A stretch of 33,442 bases of DNA from an uncultured Lentisphaerota bacterium (GTDB taxonomy: Bacteria > Verrucomicrobiota > Kiritimatiellia > RFP12 > UBA1067). Below, piece after piece: positions 226-25,794 of this stretch. The stretch covers positions 1 to 33,442 of the forward strand of contig ONRL01000080.1 of assembly GCA_900320225.1 (NCBI GenBank), read 5' to 3'. The notes under the pieces were generated by a model. That model did not search any database and had not been told where the DNA came from. It was given only the letters and a program-made list of their open reading frames with translations. The translations under genes were made by a program, and so were the position numbers. Position 1 is the first letter of the stretch, and each line of letters opens with the position of its first letter.

Positions 226-294
226 GAGACCAGAGACCAGAGGCCTGAGACCTGCGGAGACACCTCAGGTCTCAAGTCTCAGGTCTCATGTCAC
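226..294. repeat. Inverted array of GAGACNN heptamers, upstream copy
   Basis: This stretch fills most of the 203-base gap before the LamG gene. Four heptamers (GAGACCA, GAGACCA, GAGGCCT, GAGACCT) are followed by GCGGAGACAC. The inverted heptamers AGGTCTC, AAGTCTC, AGGTCTC and ATGTCAC follow. TGAGACCT (246-253) can pair with AGGTCTCA at 267-274 or 281-288. The outer flanks GAGGGTGG (left) and CACCCTCC (right) are nearly complementary. A longer copy of the same design lies downstream of the same gene at 3134-3242. Function is unknown. A hairpin, a terminator or the boundary of a mobile cassette are all possible. Confidence 0.85.
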
Positions 295-315
295 CCTCCG
301 CCCCGCTTTTCATCC

Positions 316-344
316 TTGCGGGAGCGGAGATGTTATGGTATGAT
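316..344 (+). promoter_or_regulatory. Promoter of the LamG-repeat gene
   Basis: TTGCGG (316-321), a 17-base spacer and TATGAT (339-344) make a sigma-70-like promoter. TGG directly before the -10 gives an extended -10. Transcription would start near 351, leaving a leader of about 24 bases that carries GAGGAG ahead of the ATG at 375. Confidence 0.6.
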
Positions 345-374
345 TTTCACATCTTTTCAAAGAGGAGCAGTGAA

Positions 375-3089
375 ATGAAAATGGGTAGCATGTTCAGGCG
401 CCAGGTTTTCTACACCTTGTCTTTCGCCGCCGCGTGGGCGGCGGTCTCGTCGGGGCTCGTCGGGCAATGGGACGGTCTCGAGAACGCCGGCGCGGGGCTG
501 CATGACTCCACCACGAACTACTGGACGGACCTGACGGGACAGACGGGCGACTTCGCGCTGTTCACCAGCGTCGCGTCCTTCACGGCCGACGGCCTCAAGA
601 AGAACGCCCAAGGCATCGTGGCGACGAACGTGACCGCCACTGCGCGGACGGACGTGCGCACGATCGAGGTGGTCGTCTCCGGCGCGCCGTCGTCGGGCTG
701 GGTGAATGCGCTGCTCATTTCGGAGAACCAGACGGTGACGTTCAGCAACGACAGAAGCGGGTATCGCGAATGTTTCTTCGACTTCCAGAAGTTTGGCTGG
801 CAGACGACCCAGAAGCCGGCGCAGGAAACGCTGACCGTGACATACAGTTCGGCCACGGCCGCGTCCAGCTACTACCAGAACGGCGCGAAGCCGGAAGGAA
901 CCAAGAAAACAAACTACTGGAGCAAGCCGAAGAATACGTCTGCGATGCATATTGGCGGGCGCAGCGGTTACAACACCGGCGGCGACTGGACGACGACAGG
1001 TTACACGATCCACGCGATTCGTCTGTACAGCCGCGTGCTCACGCAGGCAGAAATCAGGCGGCACGCGATGATCGACCAGATCCGGTTCTTCGGCGCGCCG
1101 GCCGAACTCATGCCGTCAGACAGCAAATGCGCGCTGACCGCCACGGCGGGAACGGGCGGCATGGTGGCGGTCGACGACGTCGATGCGTCGCCGGACGCGA
1201 CGGCGAAGATGGAGTTCACGTTCTCGCATGACGTGTTTCCGGTCGCCCTGCGCGCGGTTCCGCTGCCGGGCTGGAAGTTCTCGGGCTGGACCGGCGACTT
1301 CTCGTGCGTGATCGAAGGAGCGGCCTCGACGCCTGTGATCGTCGTCGCTACCGGTTGCGGACGCGCCTACCAGGCGGCCTTCGAGCGTGATCCGGACAAC
1401 CCGGAAATCCCCTACGTGACGGACGGCCTTGTCGGCCGTTGGGACGGACTCGAGAACGCGGGCGAGGGAATCCACGATTCGGCCGCCAACCGCTGGGTTG
1501 ACCTGTCTGGACAGGGCGGCGACTTCATCCGGCTGTCCAGCGCGGCGTCCTTTACAGAGACGGGCCTGAGGAAGAAAGCGGCCGGCGTGTGTGCGACGAA
1601 CCTCGTGGCGCACACCGACGTGCTGACGATCGAAAGCGCCGTCTCGGACGTGCCGTCTTCGGGATGGGTCAATGCGGTGTTCCTTGGAAAAGACCAGACT
1701 GTGACGTTCCGCAACGAATCCGGCAACAAGCGCCAGTTCTTCTTCGACACCGACCACCTCAAGTGGAACATGACGGGCCAGCCCAATGAACTGACGGTGG
1801 CGGTCATCTACACGCTGAATGGCAACGCGCCGCAAGGACAATCGTTCTATTTGGACGGGGCGGCACCGCAAAACGGTTTGGTCTATGGCAACGACATGTA
1901 TTGGAATGGCGCGGCACACGTGAACACGTGGATTGGCGGGCGACTGAACAACTTGGACAAGAACGACGCCCAGACCTCCGGCTATACCGTCCATGCGCTG
2001 CGCTTCTACAACCGGGCGCTCAGCGCAGGGGAGGTCGCGTACAACGCGGCGGTGGACAAGTTGCGCTTCCGCGGCCTGCGCAAGGAGGGCTTTGTCTACC
2101 GTCTCGTGGACGGCAACGTACAGTGCCAGCTTCGCGGGTGGATGGACGGACTGGGCGGAACGATCAGCATGGAGGGCGGCGCGGCGGTGACAGATCGCGT
2201 CGAGACCGCGTGGGTGACGTTCGGCACGGCGCAGTCCGCCACCTTAACGGCAACGCCGAAGAAGGGCTGGACATTCTTGGGCTGGATGGGCGATACCGAC
2301 GCCATCGTCTCCGGCACGGCGAGCGACACAACGGTGAGCGTGAGCGCGACGCATGGCGTGGCGTTGCAGGCGGTGTTCACGCGGACGGCGAAGTACGTGC
2401 AGGACGGCTTGGTCGGGTTCTGGGATTCCCTGGAGAACGCGGGATTCGGGTGCTTCGACGCAAATGCTTCCGCCTGGAAGGACCTGACGGGCGTCAGCGG
2501 CGACTTCCTCGTCAACAGCGCCTCGGGCGTGTTCGAGACGAACGCGCTCTACAAGCTCCGCCGGGGGCGCATGGCCTTCAATGCCAAGCGCCGCACGGAC
2601 GTCCGCACGGTCGAGGCGGTCGTTTCGTCACTCCCGAAGGATGTCTGGGCTGTCGCGGCGTTCGTCAGTTTCAAGCAACACATCACCATCAGGGATCTGC
2701 CGAGTGAATCGAAGCGCCAGTTCTTCTTCGACCGTGAGACTTCTGACGCCGGCCATTTCGGCTGGCAGACGACCGAGCGTCCGGAACAGCTGACGGTCGC
2801 GTTGCTGAGCGAGTCGGCGACGTCGGCCGTGGATTTCTTCGTCAACGGAGCCAAGCCGGAAGGTTCGGCGTACGGCAACTGGTGGGGCGATTCGCCCAAC
2901 AGCGTGATGGCGATCGGCGCGCGCGGTCCCGTGTCCGGCGGCGACACCTTGGCCGTCGGTTACCGTGTCCACGCGGTCCGCTTCTACAACCGCCAGCTGA
3001 CGGAGAGTGAAATCAGACGCAACGCGCGCCAGGACGCGATCCGCTACTTCGGCCAGCCCGAGCCCGGCATGACGCTCATCGTCCGGTAG
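375..3089 (+). CDS. Secreted protein with three LamG-like domains and two bacterial-repeat domains
   Basis: The protein has 904 residues. The ATG at 375 is chosen because GAGGAG precedes it and a Sec-type signal follows at once (MKMGSMFRRQ, then a hydrophobic stretch ending near AAVSS). The mature protein is modular. LamG/concanavalin-like domains begin near residues 26, 349 and 677, each opening with a version of DGLVGxWDxLENAG and closing with a VHAxRFYNRxLTxxEI segment. Between them, near residues 251-340 and 583-675, are InlB/bacterial-repeat-like domains with the hallmark GWxFxGWxGD. LamG domains usually bind glycans or proteins, so an extracellular adhesive or substrate-binding role is inferred. 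No catalytic domain, membrane anchor or sorting signal is visible at the C-terminus. The gene stands alone between two inverted heptamer arrays. An earlier in-frame ATG at 288 lies upstream of the promoter -10 and is rejected. Confidence 0.8.
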   Translation: MKMGSMFRRQVFYTLSFAAAWAAVSSGLVGQWDGLENAGAGLHDSTTNYWTDLTGQTGDFALFTSVASFTADGLKKNAQGIVATNVTATARTDVRTIEVVVSGAPSSGWVNALLISENQTVTFSNDRSGYRECFFDFQKFGWQTTQKPAQETLTVTYSSATAASSYYQNGAKPEGTKKTNYWSKPKNTSAMHIGGRSGYNTGGDWTTTGYTIHAIRLYSRVLTQAEIRRHAMIDQIRFFGAPAELMPSDSKCALTATAGTGGMVAVDDVDASPDATAKMEFTFSHDVFPVALRAVPLPGWKFSGWTGDFSCVIEGAASTPVIVVATGCGRAYQAAFERDPDNPEIPYVTDGLVGRWDGLENAGEGIHDSAANRWVDLSGQGGDFIRLSSAASFTETGLRKKAAGVCATNLVAHTDVLTIESAVSDVPSSGWVNAVFLGKDQTVTFRNESGNKRQFFFDTDHLKWNMTGQPNELTVAVIYTLNGNAPQGQSFYLDGAAPQNGLVYGNDMYWNGAAHVNTWIGGRLNNLDKNDAQTSGYTVHALRFYNRALSAGEVAYNAAVDKLRFRGLRKEGFVYRLVDGNVQCQLRGWMDGLGGTISMEGGAAVTDRVETAWVTFGTAQSATLTATPKKGWTFLGWMGDTDAIVSGTASDTTVSVSATHGVALQAVFTRTAKYVQDGLVGFWDSLENAGFGCFDANASAWKDLTGVSGDFLVNSASGVFETNALYKLRRGRMAFNAKRRTDVRTVEAVVSSLPKDVWAVAAFVSFKQHITIRDLPSESKRQFFFDRETSDAGHFGWQTTERPEQLTVALLSESATSAVDFFVNGAKPEGSAYGNWWGDSPNSVMAIGARGPVSGGDTLAVGYRVHAVRFYNRQLTESEIRRNARQDAIRYFGQPEPGMTLIVR

Positions 3090-3133: not shown

Positions 3134-3242
3134 GAGACCTGAGACATGAGACCCGAGACTTGCGGAGACATTGAGACACCAGGTCTCATGTCTCAGGTCT
3201 CAAGTCCCCCCGGCAGGTCTCGGGTCTCAGGTCTCATGTCAC
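3134..3242. repeat. Inverted array of GAGACNN heptamers, downstream copy
   Basis: Left-arm heptamers GAGACCT, GAGACAT, GAGACCC and GAGACTT are followed by GCGGAGACAT. The right-arm heptamers AGGTCTC, ATGTCTC and AGGTCTC follow, then a second right-arm series after CCCCCCGGC. The left arm GAGACCTGAGACATGAGACC (3134-3153) is perfectly complementary to 3182-3201, a 20-bp stem with a 28-base loop. The order of units matches the copy at 226-294. A stem of this size after a stop codon could act as a transcription barrier, but no T-run follows it. Confidence 0.88.
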
Positions 3243-3317
3243 CCCCTCTCCACCTCGCCAGCGGCGGGCCAAGCGCGCGTATCTTGCATGTTTTCTGATT
3301 AAAAATCCGGGCAGAGG

Positions 3318-11049: not shown

Positions 11050-13653
11050 ATGAAGAAATTCGTTGCAACCGTCGCGGCCGTTGCGGTCGGGACGCTGATG
11101 GCCGGAGACGACGGGATGTTCCCGTTCGTGCCCTCGTACGACGCGCCGAACAACGTGGTGAACATGAGCCACCTGCTGGAGGCGCCCGCCGGGAAGCACG
11201 GGCGCATCCGCGTGAAGGACGGGCACTTCGTGAACGACAGGGGGCGTGTGCGCTTGCACGCGACGAACCTCACCGGCCCCGCCAACTTCCCCACGCACGA
11301 GGAGGCGGAGCGCCTCGCCGCGCGTCTCGCCCGCTTCGGAATCAACTGCGTGCGCCTCCACTACTTCGACAGCTCCTACGGCACGTTCATGCTGCCGCAC
11401 GAGCAGGGCATCCTCACGGAGGACTTCCGCACGCGGCGGCAGTTCGACGCCGAGCGGCGCGACCGCCAGGACTACCTGATCGCGCAGTTCAAGAAGCGCG
11501 GCATCTACGTGAACGTGAACCTGCACGTGGCGCGCACGCTCGACGCGCGTGACGGCTTCGCGCCCGGCACGCCGTGGGCGAACAAGGGCGCGGACCAGTT
11601 CGACCCGCGCATCATCGAGATGGAGAAGGAGTACGCGCGCGAGCTGCTCTCGCACGTGAACCCCTACACGGGGATGAGCTACCTCAAGGACCCCGTGGTG
11701 GCCGTGGTGGAGCTCAACAACGAGGACGCGCTCTGGCGCGAGTACCTGAATGGCGCGATGGACCGTCTCGGCGAGCCGTACGCCACCGTGTTCCGCAACC
11801 AGTGGAACGACTGGCTCCTCAAGAAGTACGGCGGCAACGAGAAGATGCAGGCGGCGTGGAAGCAGCAGATGCAGCCGCTCGGCGACGAAATGATCGTCGA
11901 GGGGAAGTTCGACGGCGTGGTGGCGCCGGACGGAAAGACGTGGATCCTCGACAAGGGAAGCGCGCAGGCGAAGGTCGGCGCCGTCGAGGGCGCGCTGCGC
12001 GTGACGGTGACGCAGAAGGGCAACGAATATTTCCCCAAGCTCTATCGCCGCGTCGTCGTGAAGAAGGACACGCCCTACACGGTGTCGTTCCGCATCCGGC
12101 GCGTGAAGGGGGCGGCGGGCGAGGTGGGCTTCGCCGTCGCGGACAGGCGGAAGGGCTGGTCGTCGCTCGGCGTCCTCACGCGTTTCGAGCCGACGACGAA
12201 ATGGTCTGAGCACGCGTTCACGTTCTACGCCGGCGACACGGTGGAGAAGGCCGAGATCCAGTTCACGCGCTTCGGCGAGGGGACGTACGAGATTGACGAT
12301 CTCTCGTTCAGGACGGGCGGCAAGTCGCTGGACATCTCCGGCCTTTCGCCGGAGAAGGGCGAGATTCCGATCGTGACGTCGCGCGGGTGCGCGGCCCCCG
12401 CGATGACGCGCGACTTCTACCAGTTCCTCTGCGACACGGAGCACGCCTACTGGACAGGCATGCGCGACTACCTCCAGAAGGAGCTGGGCCTTGAGGCGCC
12501 CGTCTCCGCCACGCAGCTCGGCTACTCGCCACCGCACCTGCAGGCGGAGATGGACTACGTAGACAACCACGCCTACTGGTGCCACCCGAGCGTGAACAAG
12601 AACTGGTCGATCCGCAACAAGGCGATGGTGAACGCGCGCGGCGGCTGCATCCTCGGCCTCGCGGGCCAGCGCGTGGCGGGCAAGCCCTACACGATCAGCG
12701 AGTACAACCATCCGTATCCGATCTACTACGGCGCGGAAGGCCAGCCGATGCTGCGCGCGTACGGCGCGCTGCAGGGCTGGGACGGCGTGTTCGAGTATTC
12801 CTACAACAACCGCCAGAACGCGGAGCCCGACCACAACGAGTACTTCTTCAGCATCGCGGCGCGCACGGACGTGCTCGCGCACTTCCCCGCCTGTGCGGCG
12901 ATCTACCTGCGCGGCGACGTGAAGGAGAGCGCCACGAAGATCGTGGCGAACCTGCCCTACGCGGAATACTTCGACCGGCTCGTGAAGCAGCGCGCGGTGA
13001 GCCAGGGCATTGCGCAGGCGTCCGGCGGCAAGCTGCCGGCGGAGCTGGGCCTCGTGCACCAGGTGGCCGTGGACGTGACGGGAGGGTCGCGCTCCGTCGC
13101 GACCGCAGAAGCACCGAAAGCCGTCATCGTAAGCGACACGGGCGAGCTCACGTGGAACTGCGAGATTCCCGGGGCGGGCGTGTGGACGGTCAACACGCCG
13201 AACACGAAACTCTTCACGGGGTTCCCGAAGGGACGCACGTTCGACCTTGGCGGCGTGAAGCTGGCGGTGGGCGAGACGAAGCTCGGCTGGGCGACCATCT
13301 CGCTCACGTCGCATGATGCGACGGGCTTCGGCGAGAAGGGGCGTGCGGCGCGCATCCTCCTCGCGGCGACGGGGCTTTGCCACAACGGCGGCGCGAAGTT
13401 CACGGATCACGGCAACGGCACGATTTCCTGCCGCGATGCGGACTGGGGCCACGAGAAGACGGTGAACGAGGGCGTTCCCGCCACGATCACCTTGCCCGCG
13501 CCGGCGGCGCAGACGACCTGCCGCGCACTCGACGAGCGCGGCGAGCCGAAGTCCGACGTGCCCGTGACGGCTGACGCGGACGGACACGCCGTCATTGCGA
13601 TCGGTCCTGCCTGGCGGACCGTTTGGTATGAACTCGTGGTCAAGGAAAACTAG
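11050..13653 (+). CDS. Secreted clan GH-A-like glycoside hydrolase with an inserted carbohydrate-binding domain
   Basis: The protein has 867 residues with a signal peptide (MKKFVATVAAVAVGTLMAG). A TIM-barrel opening is visible: LHATNLTGPANFP, then RFGINCVRLHYFDS and GIYVNVNLHV. The likely acid/base Glu is E225 (VELNNED) and the likely nucleophile is E551 (TISEYNHP), as in GH5-like clan GH-A enzymes. Between these two, around residues 300-425, is a beta-rich segment resembling a CBM4/9-type module (YTVSFRIRRVKG, ending YEIDDLSFR). The C-terminal 250 residues look like beta-sandwich domains. The family and substrate cannot be assigned. AAAGGA precedes the ATG by 8 bases. A palindromic element is embedded near residues 677-686. 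Confidence 0.8.
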   Translation: MKKFVATVAAVAVGTLMAGDDGMFPFVPSYDAPNNVVNMSHLLEAPAGKHGRIRVKDGHFVNDRGRVRLHATNLTGPANFPTHEEAERLAARLARFGINCVRLHYFDSSYGTFMLPHEQGILTEDFRTRRQFDAERRDRQDYLIAQFKKRGIYVNVNLHVARTLDARDGFAPGTPWANKGADQFDPRIIEMEKEYARELLSHVNPYTGMSYLKDPVVAVVELNNEDALWREYLNGAMDRLGEPYATVFRNQWNDWLLKKYGGNEKMQAAWKQQMQPLGDEMIVEGKFDGVVAPDGKTWILDKGSAQAKVGAVEGALRVTVTQKGNEYFPKLYRRVVVKKDTPYTVSFRIRRVKGAAGEVGFAVADRRKGWSSLGVLTRFEPTTKWSEHAFTFYAGDTVEKAEIQFTRFGEGTYEIDDLSFRTGGKSLDISGLSPEKGEIPIVTSRGCAAPAMTRDFYQFLCDTEHAYWTGMRDYLQKELGLEAPVSATQLGYSPPHLQAEMDYVDNHAYWCHPSVNKNWSIRNKAMVNARGGCILGLAGQRVAGKPYTISEYNHPYPIYYGAEGQPMLRAYGALQGWDGVFEYSYNNRQNAEPDHNEYFFSIAARTDVLAHFPACAAIYLRGDVKESATKIVANLPYAEYFDRLVKQRAVSQGIAQASGGKLPAELGLVHQVAVDVTGGSRSVATAEAPKAVIVSDTGELTWNCEIPGAGVWTVNTPNTKLFTGFPKGRTFDLGGVKLAVGETKLGWATISLTSHDATGFGEKGRAARILLAATGLCHNGGAKFTDHGNGTISCRDADWGHEKTVNEGVPATITLPAPAAQTTCRALDERGEPKSDVPVTADADGHAVIAIGPAWRTVWYELVVKEN
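13080..13105. repeat. Intragenic palindromic element, copy A
   Basis: GGGAGGGTCGCG, the loop CTCCGT and CGCGACCG are seen on the + strand. The stem GGTCGCG (13085-13091) pairs with CGCGACC (13098-13104). It differs at only a few loop positions from the element at 25505-25530. It is read in frame in the GH-A-like glycosidase as TGGSRSVATAE and does not break the gene. Confidence 0.75.
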
Positions 13654-13708
13654 GCGCGTCGCCTGCGGGCGGAAAAGGCAAGAATCTGAAAGGCAGAAGG
13701 AGAACGAA

Positions 13709-14542
13709 ATGTCAGAATGCAACCATGATTGCGCGTCCTGCGCGTCGAAGAAAGATGGCAGCTGCAACGGCGAGAAACAGGCCGGATTCGCCGCACCGGC
13801 GAACGCGCGTTCGCACGTGGCGCGCGTGATCGCGGTGATGAGCGGCAAGGGCGGCGTGGGCAAGAGCCTCGTGACGGAGCTGCTTGCCGTGCAGGCGCAG
13901 AAACGCGGACTCAAGGTGGCGGTTCTCGACGCCGACATCACGGGACCGTCGATTCCCACCGCCTTCGGCGTGAAGGATCGGGCGATGTCGGACGGCGAGG
14001 GCATTCTCCCGTGCCGGAGTGCGAGCGGCATCGCGCTCATGAGCCTCAATTTTCTCGTGGAGAACCCCGCCGATCCCGTCGTGTGGCGCGGCCCCGTGAT
14101 CGCGGGCGCCGTGAAGCAGTTCTGGAGCGACGTCGCGTGGGGAGACGTGGACGTGATGTTCGTGGACCTGCCGCCGGGGACGGGCGACGTGCCGCTGACC
14201 GTGTTCCAGAGCCTGCCCGTCACGGGCGCGGTGGTGGTGACTTCGCCGCAGGACCTCGTGTCGCTCATCGTCGAGAAGGCGGTGCGCATGGCGGGGATGA
14301 TGGACGTGCCGGTGCTTGGCCTCGTGGAGAACATGAGCGTGTTCCGCTGTCCGGATTGCGGCGCGGAACACCGCATCTTCGGGCCGAGCCGCGCGGGCGA
14401 ACTGGCGTCCCGCCACGGCATCGCCGCCGTCGCTGCGTTGCCGATCGACCCGGAATACGCGAAAGCCGTCGACCTCGGCGCCGTCGAGAAGCTCGACGCC
14501 CCGTCCCTCGACGTGATCCTCGACGCCGTCCTCGCCCCGTAA
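13709..14542 (+). CDS. mrp: Mrp/NBP35-family Fe-S cluster carrier ATPase
   Basis: The protein has 277 residues and is cytoplasmic. It belongs to the MinD/Mrp class of deviant Walker ATPases that carry and transfer Fe-S clusters. It shows the deviant P-loop SGKGGVGKS (residues 45-53), LDADITGPSIP, the family hallmark VDLPPGTGDVPLT, and a CPDC pair (C214, C217) that in homologues bridges a cluster between two subunits. The N-terminus carries a further cysteine cluster (C4, C8, C11, C19), as in NBP35-like and many anaerobe Mrp proteins. Start: AAGGAG lies 8 bases before ATG 13709. It is 55 bases after the glycosidase gene and 67 bases before the ABC ATPase. No functional link to either is evident. 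Confidence 0.92.
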   Translation: MSECNHDCASCASKKDGSCNGEKQAGFAAPANARSHVARVIAVMSGKGGVGKSLVTELLAVQAQKRGLKVAVLDADITGPSIPTAFGVKDRAMSDGEGILPCRSASGIALMSLNFLVENPADPVVWRGPVIAGAVKQFWSDVAWGDVDVMFVDLPPGTGDVPLTVFQSLPVTGAVVVTSPQDLVSLIVEKAVRMAGMMDVPVLGLVENMSVFRCPDCGAEHRIFGPSRAGELASRHGIAAVAALPIDPEYAKAVDLGAVEKLDAPSLDVILDAVLAP

Positions 14543-14609: not shown

Positions 14610-15338
14610 ATGGACGCATTGAAAGCGACTGGGCTCTGCCGGGCGTACGGCACGGGCAAGTTGAAGACGCAGGTGCTGGACGGGTTTGACCTGACGCTCG
14701 CCCCCGGCGCCTTCGAGGTGCTGATGGGACCGTCCGGCAGCGGCAAGTCCACGTTCCTCCACGTCGCGGCCGGTTTGCTGGCGGCGGACGCGGGGGCGGT
14801 CGAGATCGGCGGCACGGTCGTGACGGCGCTCGGCGACGGCGCGGCCGCGAAATTCCGCCGCCGCCACGTGGGCGTGGTGTTCCAGTCCTTCAACCTCGTG
14901 GACACGCTCGACGTGGCCGCGAACATCGAACTGCCCGTGCGGCTCGACCACGGCAAGCCGGATGCGGCGCGCCTCGCCGCGCTTATTGCGAAACTCAACC
15001 TTGCGGGATTGGAAGCCCGCCTTCCCGACGAGCTTTCCGGCGGCGAACGCCAGCGCGTGGCCATCGCCCGCGCGCTCTACATGGCGCCGGACGTGATTCT
15101 TGCCGACGAGCCCACGGGCAACCTCGACGTGGCCGCCGCGAAGTCGTTCTGCGACCTCCTCCGCGCCGTCCACGCGGACGAGCGGAGCGCCATCCTCCTC
15201 GTCACCCACGACCCCGTGGTGGCGGCTGCGGCGGACCGCGTCCACTTCCTCAAGAACGGCAAGATCGCCGCCTCCCACGACACGCCCGGCCACGACCCCG
15301 CCGAGATCTCCCGCCTCTATCTGGAGACCTACAAATGA
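14610..15338 (+). CDS. ABC transporter ATP-binding protein (LolD/MacB type)
   Basis: The protein has 242 residues from ATG 14610. AAAGGA lies 8 bases upstream, the same spacing as the glycosidase gene. An in-frame ATG at 14601 would add three residues and is possible. All ABC motifs are present: Walker A GPSGSGKST, the Q-loop VVFQSFNLVDTLDVAANI, the signature LSGGERQRVAIARAL, Walker B VILADEPTGNLD and the H-loop VTHD. The best match is to the group that powers FtsX-type permeases (LolCDE lipoprotein release, MacB or BceA systems). Its stop overlaps the start of the permease gene by 4 bases (ATGA), so the two are translated together and form one transporter. Confidence 0.93.
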   Translation: MDALKATGLCRAYGTGKLKTQVLDGFDLTLAPGAFEVLMGPSGSGKSTFLHVAAGLLAADAGAVEIGGTVVTALGDGAAAKFRRRHVGVVFQSFNLVDTLDVAANIELPVRLDHGKPDAARLAALIAKLNLAGLEARLPDELSGGERQRVAIARALYMAPDVILADEPTGNLDVAAAKSFCDLLRAVHADERSAILLVTHDPVVAAAADRVHFLKNGKIAASHDTPGHDPAEISRLYLETYK

Positions 15339-17716
15339 TTCTCCGCCTGATGTTGCGCGGGCTGAGGCGCGGCAAGGCACGATTCCTGTGCGCCGTCCTC
15401 GGCATCGCCGCCGCCGTCGGGGCGGTCGTGTTCACGTTCTCCCTCACGGCGACGAACGCCGCGCAGGCCCCCGCGCTTGCAAAGCGCGCCACGGCGCCGT
15501 GGGCGGCCTGGCGGTTTGACGGGGGGGGAGGGCGAAGCGGCGCGAGCGCCGCTTCCCCGAGGCGTGCGGATTTGGCACTTGAGGTGGTGGGGATGACCAT
15601 CGACTACCGGCCCGGCGGGCGCGTCTTGCAGGGGCCACCCATGCGTGCCGTGGTGGCCGCCGCGCCCAAGGAGAATCCCTACGGCTGCACGCAGCTCGTG
15701 GAAGGGCGGTGGCCGGATGCGGCGTCGTCCGCCTGCGAGGTCGTCTGCACGAAGAACACGCTCGTGCGGTTCGGGCGCGGCGTGCCGCCGCCGGTGGGGA
15801 CGGACGTCAAGTTCGTGGGCGAGAAGGGCACGCTCACGGCGAAGGTCGTGGGGTACCTCGCGGAGGCGAAATTGCCGCTTGGCTGGCCGGGCGTGTTTGC
15901 CAATCCGGCCGCGTTCGCGGTGTTGAAGGATGAAACGCACGGCAGGATCGCGTTCTGGAAGACGGTGCCGGATCGCGCGCCGCCGGACATGCTCACGGCC
16001 GAGTCCGAACAGGTCGTGCGCGCCTTCACGGGAGACGAGGCGCGGCGGATGGACTATGCGCGCCCGCTCCTCTTCGCCGCGGCCATCCTCACGGCGCTGT
16101 GTCTGCTCGTCAATTCCCTGCTCCTCGCGGTGGAGTCGAACCGGCGCGTGCTGGCGACGCTCCGCACGGTGGGGCTCACGCGCGGCGGCGTGGTGGCGCT
16201 CGTGACGGTCGAGTCGCTGTTCGCGACGGGCGTCGGCTGGCTGTTGGGATGCCTCGGGGGATGCGTCGCCCTGATGCTTTTCGTGGCGGCCGATTCCGTG
16301 TCGTTTCCCGTTGGGCCGACTTTTGCGTGGGGCGTGATGGGCGTGGCGGGCGTGCTGGCGCTCGTTGTCGCGTTCGTCGCCGTTCTCTTCGCGCTTCGTC
16401 CCGCGCTCACGGTGCGTCCGCTCGACGCGCAGGACGCGCGTCCGCACCGCCGCCGGCGCGGCATGGCGATTGCCTTCGGATGCGGGTTCGGCGCGTTCGT
16501 GGCGGTGGAGGTGTGGGGCGCGTCGCTCATGCGCGCGTTCGTGCCGTCGGAGGAGTGGCCGGACGCCATCGTGTCCATCCTGCCGGAGGGCGTGAGTTCG
16601 TTCGACGTCGAGAAGCTCCGCGCCATTCCCGGCGTGAAGCGCATTTCGGAGTTGGTGCCGCTGCAGTTGAATTTCGACCCGGAGGAGCCGATGGAGATGC
16701 CGGGTGGCGGCCGCGCGGGAGCGCGGCCCTCCCGCGGTGGGCCGGGGGGCGGCGGTCGCGCGGGCGCGCGGCCCTCCCGGAATGCGCTGTTCCTCGCGGC
16801 GGAGTGGCTGCCGCAGTTCAAGTTCATCGAAGGCACGTGGGAGGAGGCGACGAACGCGATCTTCCGCACCGATGCCTGCGTGATCACGGAGATGATGTCG
16901 CGGGCGCGGAAGCTCCACAAGGGCGACAAGCTGCGCGTGGCGATGGGGGGGCGCGGACCGAAGATCCCGGTCGAGGTGCCGATCGCCGGCGTCGTGGACC
17001 TCAACTGGCACATGGTGACGAGCCGCGGACTCGTACGCGGACTCAACCGCGCGCCGGTCATGACGGACGGCCCCGTGTTCGTGTCGTTTGACACGGCGGA
17101 GTCCCTTGACGCGCGTCCGGCGCAGATGGTGAAGATGACGCACCTCTGGGTGGAATACGAGCCGGAGTTCCTGAAGGAGAAGGGCGTGTTCCCCGCCGGA
17201 CGGGAGGTCGAGAAGGCCATTGCGCATGCGTTGGGCCTCGATCCGTCGAATCCCAACAATCCTGCGACAGTGCGCCTGCACGCACGCGACGAAATCGCGG
17301 ACGGCACGCTCGCGCACGGGTCGGACGTCATCGGCCAGGCGGCGCGGGTGCCGTTCATCTTCCTCGCCATCCTCGCCATCGGCTTCATCGCGATGCTCGT
17401 GGCGGATGCCGACGCGACGAAGCGCGAGTTCGCCGTGCTGCGCGCGGTGGGCGCCACGAAGGGACAGCTGACGCTGCGCCTCGCGCGCGGCGCGTTGCGC
17501 ACGGCCTTCTGGGGCATCGTGTGCGGGTTGCCCGTGGGCGCGCTCGCCGGATGGCTGTTTTCCTTCAGCACCGGCGCGGTGTGGCCCGGGCTGCCGCACT
17601 ATTTCGTGTTGCCCGTGCGCGTGGTGCTGGAGGGCGCGGCCGGCGCCGTCGTGTTCGCCCTCGCCTTTGCGCTGCCGGCCGCGCACGTCATCGTGCGCCG
17701 CGCGGCGCGCCGTTAG
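15335..17716 (+). CDS. FtsX/MacB-type ABC transporter permease with embedded palindromic elements
   Basis: The protein has 793 residues. It has one N-terminal membrane helix (about residues 10-33) followed by a large extracytoplasmic domain. Three helices follow near 245-350, with a fifth after RRRRGMAIAF and a second extracytoplasmic domain. Three last helices are near 665-790 (VPFIFLAILAIGFIAMLVAD, the segment after ALRTAFWG, and the final Ala-rich helix). This is the duplicated FtsX layout with about eight membrane segments. Helices after VLATLRTVGLTRG and FAVLRAVGATKG carry the typical FtsX coupling sequence. With the upstream ATPase it should move lipids, lipoproteins or peptides across the inner membrane. 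Three palindromic elements are read in frame in its extracytoplasmic parts, producing G/R/A/P-rich inserts. Confidence 0.88.
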   Translation: MILRLMLRGLRRGKARFLCAVLGIAAAVGAVVFTFSLTATNAAQAPALAKRATAPWAAWRFDGGGGRSGASAASPRRADLALEVVGMTIDYRPGGRVLQGPPMRAVVAAAPKENPYGCTQLVEGRWPDAASSACEVVCTKNTLVRFGRGVPPPVGTDVKFVGEKGTLTAKVVGYLAEAKLPLGWPGVFANPAAFAVLKDETHGRIAFWKTVPDRAPPDMLTAESEQVVRAFTGDEARRMDYARPLLFAAAILTALCLLVNSLLLAVESNRRVLATLRTVGLTRGGVVALVTVESLFATGVGWLLGCLGGCVALMLFVAADSVSFPVGPTFAWGVMGVAGVLALVVAFVAVLFALRPALTVRPLDAQDARPHRRRRGMAIAFGCGFGAFVAVEVWGASLMRAFVPSEEWPDAIVSILPEGVSSFDVEKLRAIPGVKRISELVPLQLNFDPEEPMEMPGGGRAGARPSRGGPGGGGRAGARPSRNALFLAAEWLPQFKFIEGTWEEATNAIFRTDACVITEMMSRARKLHKGDKLRVAMGGRGPKIPVEVPIAGVVDLNWHMVTSRGLVRGLNRAPVMTDGPVFVSFDTAESLDARPAQMVKMTHLWVEYEPEFLKEKGVFPAGREVEKAIAHALGLDPSNPNNPATVRLHARDEIADGTLAHGSDVIGQAARVPFIFLAILAIGFIAMLVADADATKREFAVLRAVGATKGQLTLRLARGALRTAFWGIVCGLPVGALAGWLFSFSTGAVWPGLPHYFVLPVRVVLEGAAGAVVFALAFALPAAHVIVRRAARR
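15526..15559. repeat. Intragenic palindromic element, variant F
   Basis: After GGGAGGGC comes a perfect 9-bp stem, GAAGCGGCG (15534-15542) and CGCCGCTTC (15547-15555), with loop CGAG, then CCCG. The GGGAGGG start matches copies A and B but the stem is different. In the permease it encodes a Gly/Ser/Ala/Arg-rich loop (GGGGRSGASAASPRR) just after the first membrane helix. Confidence 0.65.
16708..16734. repeat. Intragenic palindromic element, copy D (tandem partner of E)
   Basis: GGCCGCGC-GGGA-GCGCGGCC is followed by CTCCCG. It is a perfect 8-bp stem. Compared with the murD copy, T-A in the stem is replaced by C-G on both sides, a paired change. It is read in the permease as GRAGARPSR. Confidence 0.8.
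16753..16779. repeat. Intragenic palindromic element, copy E (tandem partner of D)
   Basis: GGTCGCGC-GGGC-GCGCGGCC is followed by CTCCCG, in the same orientation and reading frame as copy D and 18 bases after it. It again encodes GRAGARPSR. One stem position is a G-T type mismatch, so this copy is intermediate between the two perfect stem versions. Confidence 0.8.
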
Positions 17717-18588: not shown

Positions 18589-19760
18589 TGCCGGCTTTCA
18601 GCGGAGCCACGCTCGACTCGCGGAAGGTGAAGCCGGGCATGCTGTTCGTCGCGGTGAAGGGCGAGCGCTTGGACGGGCACGATTTCATCCCGCAGGCGCG
18701 CGCGGCCGGCGCGGCGGGGATCGTCGACGGACGCGAGGAGCTCGCGCGCGTCGCCGCCGAGTACCGCCGCACGCTGAAGGCGAAGGTGATCGGCATCACC
18801 GGCAGCGCGGGCAAGACGACCACGAAGGAACTCGTGGCCGCGTTCCTCCGCGCGGGCGGTTTCCGCGTGCACGCCACGGAGGGCAACTTCAACAACGACC
18901 TCGGCCTGCCGCTCACGATCCTCAACTGCCCGCCGGACGCGGAGTTCCTCGTCGTCGAGATGGGCACGAACCATCCCGGCGAGATCGCCTACCTCGTGGA
19001 CATCGCGCGCCCCGACGCGGGCGTGATCTCGTCCATCGGCACGGCGCACATTGAGTTCTTCAAGACGCAGGACGGCATCGCGGACGAGAAGGGCACGCTC
19101 TTCGCGCGGCTGCCGCCGGACGGCTTCGCGGTGGTGGGCGTGAACAACGACCGCTACGAACGTCTGCGCGCGATGAGCGCCGCGCGCGTCGTCGCCGTCG
19201 ATCCGTCCGACGAAGTCGGCGCGCGCCTCGCGTCCGCGCTCGCGCCGCGTCTCCCCGGCGCGCACAACGTGTCGAACGCGCGCCTCGCGGCCGCGTGCGC
19301 GGGCGAGTTCGGCGTGCCGCTCGACCGCTGCGTCGCGGCGCTCGAGGACTTCGCGCTGCCGGGCGACCGCTGGCGCGTGACGGAACGCGACGGCGTCACG
19401 TACGTGAACGACTGCTACAACGCGAACCCCACGTCGATGATCGCCGCGCTCGAGACGTTCGCGGCGATGCCGTGCGCGGGCCGTCGCGTGGCCGTGCTCG
19501 GCGACATGTTCGAACTCGGCGCGCAGAGCGGCGAGCTGCACGCGCGCGTGCTGGCGCGCGCGGCGGAGTTGCCGCTCGACGCGGTATTCGCGGTGGGCGA
19601 GGCGATGGCGGCGGCGTGTGCGGCGGTCGCGGGGCGACCGCCCTGCCGGGTGGCGGATGCCGCGGCGGCGAAGGCGGAGCTCGCCGCATTTGTTCGTGCG
19701 GGCGACGCGGTGCTGCTCAAGGCGTCGCATGGCATGCACCTGGAGGCGGTGCTCGCATGA
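18588..19760 (+). CDS. murF: UDP-N-acetylmuramoyl-tripeptide--D-alanyl-D-alanine ligase
   Basis: The protein has 390 residues, shorter than the usual 450. It adds D-Ala-D-Ala to the peptidoglycan precursor in the cytoplasm. Motifs: TLDSRKVKPGMLFVAVKGER, the ATP-binding GITGSAGKTTTKE, the MurF hallmark NFNNDLGLPLTIL, EMGTNHPGEI, NDCYNANPTSM and LGDMFELG. The protein begins about 20 residues late relative to the family, entering directly at the uridine-binding domain, so that first strand is missing or very reduced. It overlaps lpxA by 1 base and murD by 4 bases. A perfect hairpin (19622-19642) is embedded near residues 345-352 in the C-terminal domain. Confidence 0.94.
   Translation: MPAFSGATLDSRKVKPGMLFVAVKGERLDGHDFIPQARAAGAAGIVDGREELARVAAEYRRTLKAKVIGITGSAGKTTTKELVAAFLRAGGFRVHATEGNFNNDLGLPLTILNCPPDAEFLVVEMGTNHPGEIAYLVDIARPDAGVISSIGTAHIEFFKTQDGIADEKGTLFARLPPDGFAVVGVNNDRYERLRAMSAARVVAVDPSDEVGARLASALAPRLPGAHNVSNARLAAACAGEFGVPLDRCVAALEDFALPGDRWRVTERDGVTYVNDCYNANPTSMIAALETFAAMPCAGRRVAVLGDMFELGAQSGELHARVLARAAELPLDAVFAVGEAMAAACAAVAGRPPCRVADAAAAKAELAAFVRAGDAVLLKASHGMHLEAVLA
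19622..19642. repeat. Intragenic palindromic element, variant G
   Basis: GGCGGTCGC (19622-19630), the loop GGG and GCGACCGCC (19634-19642) form a perfect 9-bp hairpin followed by CTGCCGG. The GGTCGC/GCGACC core is shared with the main element family, but loop and tail differ. It encodes AVAGRPPCRV in MurF. Confidence 0.55.
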
Positions 19761-20974
19761 ACGCGCTCGTGTTCGGCGCGGGGAAAAGCGGCGCGGCGGC
19801 GGCGGAGCTGCTGCGGCGCGTCGACTTCGGTCGCGCAGGAGCGCGACCCTCCCGCGCGGGGCAAGGCGAGGTGCGCGTGCTCGACGGCGGCGACGCGTAT
19901 CCGGACGGCACGTGGGACCTCGCGGTGACGAGTCCGGGCGTGCCGCTCACGCACCCGTGGCAGGTCGCGGCGCGCGCGGCGGGCGTGCCGGTGATCAGCG
20001 AACTTGAGCTTGGCGCGCGCCACTTCGCGGGGAAGATGCTCGCGGTGACGGGCTCGAAGGGAAAGAGCTCCGTGGTGAAGCTCGTCGCGGACGGACTCAA
20101 CGCGGCGGGCGTGACGGCCGTCGCGTGCGGCAACTACGGCACGCCGCTCTGCGAGGTGGCGCTCATGGAGCCGCAGCCCGCGTGGGCCGTGGTGGAGGTG
20201 TCGAGCTTCCAGATGGAGACCACGCACCCCGAGCATTTCCGTCCCGTGGCCGCCGCGATCCTCAACCTGCAGGAGGACCATCTCGACCGGCACGGCAGCG
20301 TGGAGGCGTATCACGCGCTCAAGCGCAAGATGCTCGAAGGGGCCGCGCGCGCCGTCGCCGCGGCGCGCGCGTGGGACGACTGCCTCGCGGGCTCGTATTT
20401 CGACAACGACGTGCTGCGGCCCAACGGCGAGGTGGCGGCGGCGCTCATGGACGCCGCGGGGTTGCCGCGCGACGCCATCGCGCGCGCCTTCGCGACCTTC
20501 GTGCCGCTTGCGCACCGGATGCAGAAAGTAGCGGACATAAAGGGCGTTTCGTACATCGACGACTCGAAGGCGACGTCGCTTGCGGCGCTCGCGGCGGGCG
20601 TGCGGATGGCGCAGGGCGCGCGTTCCGAGCCGTCGGTGCGCCTGATCGCCGGCGGACTCGCAAAAGGGGATTCTCCAAATTCTGTAATTCCGTACTTGCG
20701 TTCCGGGGTCAAAAAAGTGTATCTTATAGGGCGTTGCGCAGACCAGCTCTTCGATGCGTGGCGGGAAACCGTTCCGTGCGAGGTCTGCGGGACGCTCGAC
20801 CGGGCGGTCGAGAGGTCCCGGCGTGATGCGTGCGAAGGCGAGACGGTGCTCCTCTCGCCGGGCACGGCAAGTTTCGATCAATTTAACAGCTACGGGGCCC
20901 GCGGCGACGCATTCGCCTCCTTCGTCAGGTCGAAGGGGACGTGCGGCGAGGCGGAAACCAAAAAACGAGGATGA
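19757..20974 (+). CDS. murD: UDP-N-acetylmuramoyl-L-alanine--D-glutamate ligase
   Basis: The protein has 405 residues. It adds D-Glu to UDP-MurNAc-L-Ala. The N-terminal Rossmann-like start is FGAGKSGAAAAELL, the ATP site is VTGSKGKSS (Lys where many homologues have Asn), then EVSSFQMET, NLQEDHLDRHGS, DDSKATSLAAL and a C-terminal SPGTASFDQFNSYGARGDAF, all MurD hallmarks. The segment between the first helix and second strand contains an extra stretch (DFGRAGARPSRAGQGE) encoded by a palindromic element. Homologues have only a short turn there. The codons around 20663-20735 are unusually AT-rich and rare for this gene. The start overlaps murF by 4 bases, and the stop lies 4 bases before the LysM lipoprotein gene. 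Confidence 0.94.
   Translation: MNALVFGAGKSGAAAAELLRRVDFGRAGARPSRAGQGEVRVLDGGDAYPDGTWDLAVTSPGVPLTHPWQVAARAAGVPVISELELGARHFAGKMLAVTGSKGKSSVVKLVADGLNAAGVTAVACGNYGTPLCEVALMEPQPAWAVVEVSSFQMETTHPEHFRPVAAAILNLQEDHLDRHGSVEAYHALKRKMLEGAARAVAAARAWDDCLAGSYFDNDVLRPNGEVAAALMDAAGLPRDAIARAFATFVPLAHRMQKVADIKGVSYIDDSKATSLAALAAGVRMAQGARSEPSVRLIAGGLAKGDSPNSVIPYLRSGVKKVYLIGRCADQLFDAWRETVPCEVCGTLDRAVERSRRDACEGETVLLSPGTASFDQFNSYGARGDAFASFVRSKGTCGEAETKKRG
19828..19853. repeat. Intragenic palindromic element, copy C
   Basis: GGTCGCGC-AGGA-GCGCGACC is followed by CTCCC. The 26 bases are the exact reverse complement of 25505-25530. In murD it is read as GRAGARPSR, the same frame as the two permease copies. Confidence 0.88.
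20696..20725 (+). promoter_or_regulatory. Possible internal promoter within murD
   Basis: TTGCGT (20696-20701), an 18-base spacer and TATCTT (20720-20725) lie in an AT-rich patch of an otherwise GC-rich gene. It could drive the LysM lipoprotein and ftsW genes, whose first start codon is about 250 bases downstream. It is supported only by composition and box similarity. Confidence 0.3.
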
Positions 20975-20978
20975 AAAA

Positions 20979-22289
20979 ATGAAGGCGCAAAAACTCGGAC
21001 TGGTTCTGGGTATCAACATGGTGGCGGCCTGCCTGATAATTCAGGGTTGCGCGGCTCCCAATTCAGAGAAGTACAAGAAGAGGGGTGGCTCTGCCCCCAC
21101 GACGATGGGACCGGAAACTTCCGGTTATCCTTCTTCGTCGGCGAACAAGCCGGTCATCACGGTCAAGTCGACAGCTCCGCGTACGGAGCCTGTCGTTGCG
21201 TCCGTGGAGGAGCCGCCGGTCGCACCTCCTCCGTCGGCCGAGCCCGCGCCGTCTGCCGTTTCGACGGTCAAGCAGTTGCCTCCCACTCCGTCGAAGACTC
21301 CGAAGGCGAAGCCCGCCGCCGCACCTGCGCCCGCCGCCGCGCCGGCTCCTGCCGTCGCCGCCGCGCCGGTCGTCGAGTACGTCGTGAAGCCGGGTGACAC
21401 GCTCTTCCTGATCAGCAAGCGCACGAACTATCGTCAGGCCGCAATCCTTGCCGCGAATCCGGGTTTGGACGCGAACCGCATCCGCGTAGGCCAGAAGATC
21501 AAGCTGCCGGGCGCCGTCTCCGCGCCGGCGACTGCCGTCGCCAAGGCCGCCGCGCCGGAGGCGAAGTCCGCCGCGAAGGACGGCAAGGTGCTGCCCGCCG
21601 CCGCGCCGGCTCCTGCCGCCGCGAATACGAAGGCGCCCGTCAAGACGAAGAGCAGTTTCGTGGCGTACGAGGGGCCGACGAAGGACTACACCGTGAAGTC
21701 GGGGGATTCGCTCGGCAAGATCGCCATGGAGTACGGCATCTCCATCCGTGCGCTCAAAGCGCTCAACGGCCTGCAGAAGGACAACCTCCGTTTGGGCCAG
21801 AAGCTGAAGGTCCCGACTGAGAAGCAGACGGCTGCGAAGGCCGCCGCGAAGCCGGCCGCCGCGAAGCCGGCCGCCGCGAAGCCGGCTGCCGCGAAGGCCG
21901 ACACCGCGAAAGCTCCCGCGAAGGCGGACGACGCCGCGAAGGACGCCCCTGCGAAGGCGGACGACGCCGCGAAGGAGGAGCCTGCCGTGAAGGATGCCGC
22001 CGCACCCGCCCCCGCTGCGGTCGAGAAGCCCGCCGACGCCGAGAAGCCCGCCGATGCCGTGAAGGCCGACGAGGCCGCCGCGAAGCCCGCCGAGGCCGCC
22101 GCGCCGGAGGCCACGGTCCCGGCGCCCACCTACACGGTCAAGGAAGGCGACGACCTCGTCTCCATCGCGATCGCATACGGCATCAGCCCGAGCGCGCTCA
22201 TGGACATCAACGACCTCAAGCCGACGGACGAGATCAAGCCCGGCCAGGTCCTGAAACTTCCGGCGAACGCCAAGGCGAGCGTCCAGTAA
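20979..22289 (+). CDS. Lipoprotein with three LysM domains
   Basis: The protein has 436 residues. The N-terminus MKAQKLGLVLGINMVAACLI ends in the lipobox IIQGC, so it should be lipidated at that Cys and anchored in a membrane. Three LysM peptidoglycan-binding domains are visible: EYVVKPGDTLFLISKR, DYTVKSGDSLGKIAMEYGIS and TYTVKEGDDLVSIAIAYGIS. The last one ends at the C-terminus. The linkers are rich in Ala, Pro and Lys and contain DNA-level tandem repeats. No peptidase or amidase domain is present, so a structural or scaffold role linking membrane and wall is inferred. Start: the ATG at 20979 has GAGG upstream and follows murD by 4 bases. Its position between murD and ftsW suggests a role in wall growth or division. 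Confidence 0.88.
   Translation: MKAQKLGLVLGINMVAACLIIQGCAAPNSEKYKKRGGSAPTTMGPETSGYPSSSANKPVITVKSTAPRTEPVVASVEEPPVAPPPSAEPAPSAVSTVKQLPPTPSKTPKAKPAAAPAPAAAPAPAVAAAPVVEYVVKPGDTLFLISKRTNYRQAAILAANPGLDANRIRVGQKIKLPGAVSAPATAVAKAAAPEAKSAAKDGKVLPAAAPAPAAANTKAPVKTKSSFVAYEGPTKDYTVKSGDSLGKIAMEYGISIRALKALNGLQKDNLRLGQKLKVPTEKQTAAKAAAKPAAAKPAAAKPAAAKADTAKAPAKADDAAKDAPAKADDAAKEEPAVKDAAAPAPAAVEKPADAEKPADAVKADEAAAKPAEAAAPEATVPAPTYTVKEGDDLVSIAIAYGISPSALMDINDLKPTDEIKPGQVLKLPANAKASVQ
21840..21983 (+). repeat. Tandem repeats in the LysM-protein linker
   Basis: Four 15-base units of the type GCCGCCGCGAAGCCG (21840-21899, last one diverged) encode repeated AAAKP. They are followed by two 33-base units (21918-21950 and 21951-21983) beginning GCGAAGGCGGACGACGCC and encoding AKADDAAK-type repeats. 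Slippage here would change linker length in frame, since both unit lengths are multiples of three. Confidence 0.85.
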
Positions 22290-25500: not shown

Positions 25501-25794
25501 CTACGGGAGGGTCGCGCTCCTGCGCGACCGCCGCGCGTAGTGGAAGTAGAGCGCGAGGTCGGTGGCGACGAGCGCGGTGTCGGCGAGATACACCCAGGTG
25601 ACCCAGCTGCGGTCGCTGATCAAGTGGCTCGCGATGCCGAAGAGGTAGCCGGCGATCACGATGATCTCGAACATGGGGCTCTTGCCGTCCACGCGCTTGG
25701 CGCGGACGGTCTTGGCGATGGCGAACGGCCAGGAGAAGCCGAAGCAGAAGAGCATCGCGAACTCGAGGATGCGTGGCAGGATGTCTGGATTCAT
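25501..25794 (-). CDS. Small membrane protein, possibly PQ-loop-like
   Basis: The protein has 97 residues. Three hydrophobic helices are visible: ILEFAMLFCFGFSWPFAIAK, then FEIIVIAGYLFGIASHLI, then WVYLADTALVATDLALYFHY. The motif GFSWPFAIAKTVRAKRVDGK resembles the first repeat of small PQ-loop-like proteins found in many bacteria, whose role is generally unknown. The last residues, RRSRRSATLP, and the approach to the stop codon are encoded by palindromic element B, so the natural C-terminus was probably extended or replaced by its insertion. It lies 24 bases upstream of the coiled-coil gene on the same strand and is divergent from the DUF6259-like gene. The two minus-strand genes are probably one transcript. 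Confidence 0.75.
   Translation of the reverse strand: MNPDILPRILEFAMLFCFGFSWPFAIAKTVRAKRVDGKSPMFEIIVIAGYLFGIASHLISDRSWVTWVYLADTALVATDLALYFHYARRSRRSATLP
25505..25530. repeat. Palindromic element, copy B
   Basis: GGGAGGGTCGCGCTCC followed by TGCGCGACCG is the exact reverse complement of the murD copy (19828-19853). It lies at the 3' end of the small membrane-protein gene, with the stop codon (CTA on the + strand at 25501-25503) immediately outside it. Confidence 0.88.

Follow-up and report, generated by a model that had tools for sequence, protein, structure and literature searches.

What are the two palindromes that are read in frame in an ABC permease gene, and how would they have come to lie there? 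The gene (15335..17716, + strand; positions are those of the window, the whole 33,442 nt stretch that was analysed) encodes a MacB/FtsX-type permease (Pfam MacB_PCD, E 7e-8; FtsX, E 3e-20) whose homologues were from Kiritimatiellae genomes of rumen and omasum, which places the window in that group. Both hairpins of the earlier note were confirmed, at 16708..16733 (+) and 16753..16778 (+), 45 nt apart and in frame, each read GGRAGARPSR. The first is of C-G type (CGGCCGCGCGGGAGCGCGGCCCTCCC) and matches exactly the 26-mer defined below; the second carries a T-G pair (CGGTCGCGCGGGCGCGCGGCCCTCCC).

The element was defined from a profile of 78 tailed copies, with at most 2 mismatches in the core. 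It is the 26-mer CGG[T/C/A]CGCGC[A/G]GGAGCGCG[A/G/T]CC-CTCCC, laid out as a C, a 20-nt hairpin and CTCCC, with sharp boundaries on either side of which the profile abruptly falls to a weak base preference. On the opposite strand a GGGAG tag precedes a hairpin of 8 bp with a 4-base loop; the element is thus a hairpin repeat of 20-40 nt with a conserved tag at its 5' foot, as REPs are. None of its six reading frames holds a stop codon.

At up to 3 mismatches the window gave 11 matches against 1.9 expected in shuffles, and requiring the CTCCC tail left five real copies; a look-alike at 12376 without the tail was not counted. Besides the permease pair, a T-A type copy at 19828..19853 (+) lies in murD (19757..20974, +; TIGR01087, E 1.5e-90, above that model's cut-off) and is read FGRAGARPSR. 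A copy with the variant stem GGTCGCGACGGAGCGCGACC (13080..13105, -; 1 mismatch to the 26-mer) contributes TGGSRSVATA to the sense frame of an ORF for a large protein (11050..13653, +), previously taken for a glycosidase, which shows only a carbohydrate-binding domain (PF02018, E 1.8e-8). The last copy, T-A type and exact (25505..25530, -), belongs to what had been called a membrane-protein gene, a small hydrophobic ORF of 97 aa (25501..25794, -; no Pfam match), but it is not internal: it forms the C-terminus and supplies RRSRRSATLP, the residues just ahead of the stop. Other repeats were also seen in the window: direct repeats GACACCTCAGGTCTCAAGTCTCAGGTCTCATGTC at 259-296, 3173-3210 and 3207-3244, on both sides of ORF 288-3089, and long degenerate Ala/Lys/Pro-rich repeats in an ORF at 21276-22289.

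The earlier note had proposed a palindromic family spread through the genome, and held that few copies, or conservation of the peptide segments in homologues from distant phyla, would speak against mobility. The whole genome that contains the window (G000; 5.21 Mb, 351 contigs) gave 541 matches, and the reversed pattern 42. The family pattern GGGAGGGNCGC-N8-GCGNCC was matched exactly 524 times in G000, 357 and 413 times in the congeners G003 and G004, and 397 times in G023, which belongs to another genus of the same family; these genomes thus hold well over the 100 copies per genome looked for in a REP. The pattern was matched in 31 of 59 genomes (range 0 to 524 copies), being few or absent in many, and its reversal gave almost no matches. 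The proposed family stands, in frame in genes and variable between relatives. Chance hairpins, or nothing more than GC-rich coding sequence of low complexity, might be suspected from the 64% GC of sampled G000 and from the glycine-rich permease loop, but 136 of 166 sampled copies are exact to the 26-mer outside its variable positions, the reversed pattern is far rarer and orthologous sites are empty, and we regard this explanation as refuted.

One stem pair varies among three types, T-A, C-G and A-T, and it is Watson-Crick in 159 of the 166 copies against 59 in shuffles. The paired T-A to C-G change first noticed in the window is thus real, with the qualification that the second permease hairpin is a T-G wobble and that A-T is a third type. 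The T-A and A-T types form the left arm and the right arm, respectively, of an inverted pair around a transposase gene described below, and the C-G type is a third set of copies in G000, so the change is a difference between subfamilies. Since the three types represent few subfamilies, two of them the arms of one REPIN, a single change within G000 is weak evidence for selection on the fold, which had been suggested from it. Comparison between species serves that suggestion better: among 13 distinct hairpins from transposase-linked loci and G000, six of the eight stem pairs have changed on both sides while 98% of cells are paired. Stems that differ wholesale between species and yet stay paired argue strongly for the predicted fold. 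The GGGAG tag is invariant in the 13 hairpins, which were picked by a tag search, so that its presence is tested and not its exclusiveness; it falls outside the GTAG superfamily of tags (GTAG, GYAG, GYRG, GTRG, GTMG).

Genes were called with a home-made codon model, under which the coding fraction is 82%. In about 0.98 Mb of G000, on contigs partly chosen for carrying copies, 111 of 166 copies are interior, lying 60 nt or more within a gene; of the others, 51 fall between genes and 4 at gene ends. By a common hairpin definition, interior copies number 119/191 in G000, 34/64 in G004 and 3/70 in G023 (about 0.35 Mb each for the latter two); the extragenic location expected of REPs is thus found in G023 and not in G000. 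The interior copies of G000 form 57 clusters, of which 26 were compared with relatives after joining the flanks; in at least 24 of these, by our own reading of the alignments, the relatives align in frame across the joined flanks. The genes concerned include tsaD, rsmA, proS, murD, a LacZ-type galactosidase, a TadA-type ATPase and the transposase gene itself. MurD, TsaD, RsmA and ProS are cytoplasmic enzymes, so inserts also occur outside the extracytoplasmic loops in which the first reading of the permease had placed them.

Several sites are empty in relatives. The murD insert adds 39 nt net (13 residues) in a short stretch near the N-terminus and is absent from 13 relatives; by alignment the insertion is clean and private to G000. 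Permease site 1 holds a copy in most of the genus but none in G005 or G006; the copy at site 2 is private to G000 among the homologues aligned. The second ground named against mobility is thus not borne out by murD and the permease. The proS insertion site is also used in relatives, by related hairpins of each relative's own type, which indicates that some insertion sites are old. No target duplication could be fixed from the empty sites, because most insertion loops differ otherwise too in relatives, and for the neighbours of the other window elements no syntenic DNA match was found in named congener contigs. In orthologues of the gene at 12534-14030 of G000 contig C184, the same loops collect unrelated short repeats, L218 and L224 having other repeat-coded stretches (TANHESR, THNSQL) at the REP loop.

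A candidate mobiliser was found in G000 as one short RAYT gene, an HUH/Tyr REP-associated transposase (G000:C293; locus L147, 6265-7176). Inverted pairs, GGGAG-hairpin...hairpin-CTCCC, lie on both of its flanks, and two further inverted pairs are embedded in the coding frame, in the stretch that separates the HUH motif from the Tyr motif. RAYT homologues with flanking GGGAG hairpins were found in G003, G004, G009, G011, G013, G018, G023 and G032; in some of them one side is lost at contig ends, and the two copies seen in G018 are in the same orientation. The RAYT gene of G032 is uninterrupted. The stems go with the genome: GGTCGCAATTTATTGCGACC in G003, GGTCGCGCTCCGTCGCGACC in G009 and G032, GGGGCAAGCGTCTGCTTGCCC in G018, and a form with a 5-base loop in G011 and G013. 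Membership of the RAYT family was supported by the HxH and Tyr, which are invariant, by a best NCBIfam match to NF047646 (REP-associated tyrosine transposase; E 1e-18 to 1e-22) with bit scores around the cut-off of 80 (G003 just above at 80.1, G032 at 74 and G000 at 68 below it), and by a best PDB match to TnpA_REP (4er8, E 6e-6); the G000 protein scores under the Pfam threshold. The three best Pfam Y1 transposases in G000 (C277, C294, C276) were considered as mobilisers and set aside, none being flanked by the element on both sides. One of these genes, on C277, has a different palindrome, clustered as GGCAGCGCAAGCGCTGCC-TTCAGGAC beside and inside the gene (L031 1080-1300, 2230-2340), and is probably part of a second RAYT/REP system. 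That on C294, a 384-aa Y1 transposase frame, has three flanking copies of the palindrome GCAAAACAGGTCTGACCTGTTTTGC (L032 1289-1315, 2521-2545, 2570-2600) and resembles the TIR-flanked tyrosine transposases (PMC3733652).

The association bears on the likeness to Rickettsia palindromic elements that had been put forward. An element of that type, unrelated to RAYT and moved by something else, would have the same effect, in-frame palindromes in essential genes of many kinds, and CGTC repeats, including the intragenic ones of R. conorii, are described as having no transposase link (PMC3733652). Such an identity is contradicted by the repeats that flank RAYT in nine genomes, the stems corresponding to the genome in which they lie, and we consider it very improbable; the element belongs instead to a RAYT-linked REP/REPIN family. 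Within the genus RAYT presence and copy number are weakly associated (p 0.04), and no close RAYT was found in G005, which has 169 copies, perhaps through an assembly gap. That the RAYT moves the element is an inference.

Taken as a full explanation, the element is very probably a REP, single or in an inverted pair (REPIN), that is non-autonomous and mobilised by one chromosomal RAYT. The transposase would recognise the single-stranded GGGAG-hairpin, its HUH/Tyr site would cut at a nearby CT dinucleotide, and the cut REP or REPIN would be inserted elsewhere. For GTAG REPs cleavage at CT is published and is set by the last two bases of the tag (PMC8266576). As the 26-mer is stop-free in six frames, an insertion with a net length that is a multiple of three merely adds a loop, which would then be translated.

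Frame is where a second account has to be weighed. The interior copies are without stops, and two frames, GGSRSCAT and DAQERVPP, account for 82 of the 111 (p about 2e-10 when counted by cluster; 0.002 for single elements). Same-strand neighbours are spaced by a multiple of three in 29 of 30 cases inside genes against 3 of 10 in intergenic arrays. Selection on the reading frame is the simple reading of both biases. Alternatively, insertion in genes would be part of the system, the RAYT/REPIN unit being intrinsically frame-preserving, diversifying protein loops and kept as useful. This would suit the inverted-pair spacing, which has the same phase inside and outside genes, and the occupation of some sites across the genus. 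It would also suit the clusters with an A-T arm, 31/37 of which are interior in G000, about as random placement predicts (coding fraction 0.82), while the others are depleted (27/59; p 0.0002); loss of the insertions that shift the frame should have removed about two thirds. Against it, tandem copies outside genes do not keep to multiples of three in their spacing, so that the phase within genes looks selected; the GGGAG family of G023 is almost wholly extragenic, and any benefit of loop inserts is hypothetical. We hold it to be unlikely. The wider proposal, that in one Kiritimatiellae genus an intrinsically frame-preserving RAYT/REPIN left spacers for coding sequence, inserting without regard to genes and placing translated, hairpin-coded loops genome-wide in essential proteins including its own transposase, is somewhat less so, though still doubtful, and recent REPIN spread is preferred to a special mechanism that preserves frame. 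Under recent spread, the placement of the A-T clusters would reflect a current REPIN type that spread in this genus almost irrespective of genes and has not yet been purged from them; selection would have removed insertions that shift the frame and peptides that are poorly tolerated, so that the remaining inserts are in frame, biased in frame and placed in tolerant loops.

REPs are usually regarded as spacer DNA. Here the same GGGAG repeats are placed very differently in two genera of one family, 3/70 in genes in G023, which has both RAYT and tag and yet keeps its repeats almost wholly extragenic, against more than half. That contrast, with the private murD insertion, opens two questions to study: what excludes REPs from genes, and how proteins gain new segments from mobile DNA.

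The element agrees with the REP/RAYT definition except in tag and location. Like the systems of E. coli, Pseudomonas and Stenotrophomonas (PMC2817692, PMC3116915, PMC8266576), it consists of short tagged hairpins in hundreds of copies and inverted pairs, with RAYT flanked by inverted copies and stems specific to the RAYT's genome; cutting of GTAG REPs by RAYT was established in vitro (PMC8266576). Its tag is GGGAG where theirs is GTAG or GTGG, although some Pseudomonas REPs have GGAG right before the stem, after a GTRG start (PMC2817692). It differs further from known RAYT REPs in being mostly intragenic, in having copies inside the RAYT gene and in its Kiritimatiellae host. Rickettsia palindromic elements, the CGTC repeats of R. 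conorii, are likewise in-frame palindromic inserts in many unrelated genes, but they are not tied to a transposase (PMC3733652) and have another sequence, tag and host, whereas the present element is RAYT-associated. Most REPs are intergenic, against a coding majority in G000; intragenic copies, most abundant in Opitutus terrae and R. conorii, have been accepted as REPs even though the name describes an extragenic location (PMC3733652). No account of this element's family, GGGAG tag or host was found in the open-access literature; what is new is the intragenic majority, the presence of insertions within the RAYT's own gene and the difference from one genus to another. Rumen Kiritimatiellae are added to the hosts in which RAYT and REPs are associated, with a tag that is not among the published GTAG variants. 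Among the closest known systems are the intragenic GTAG repeats of O. terrae, a member, as is G000, of the wider PVC group, in which REPs and dimers with a different tag are likewise read as peptides, sometimes twice per gene (PMC3733652).
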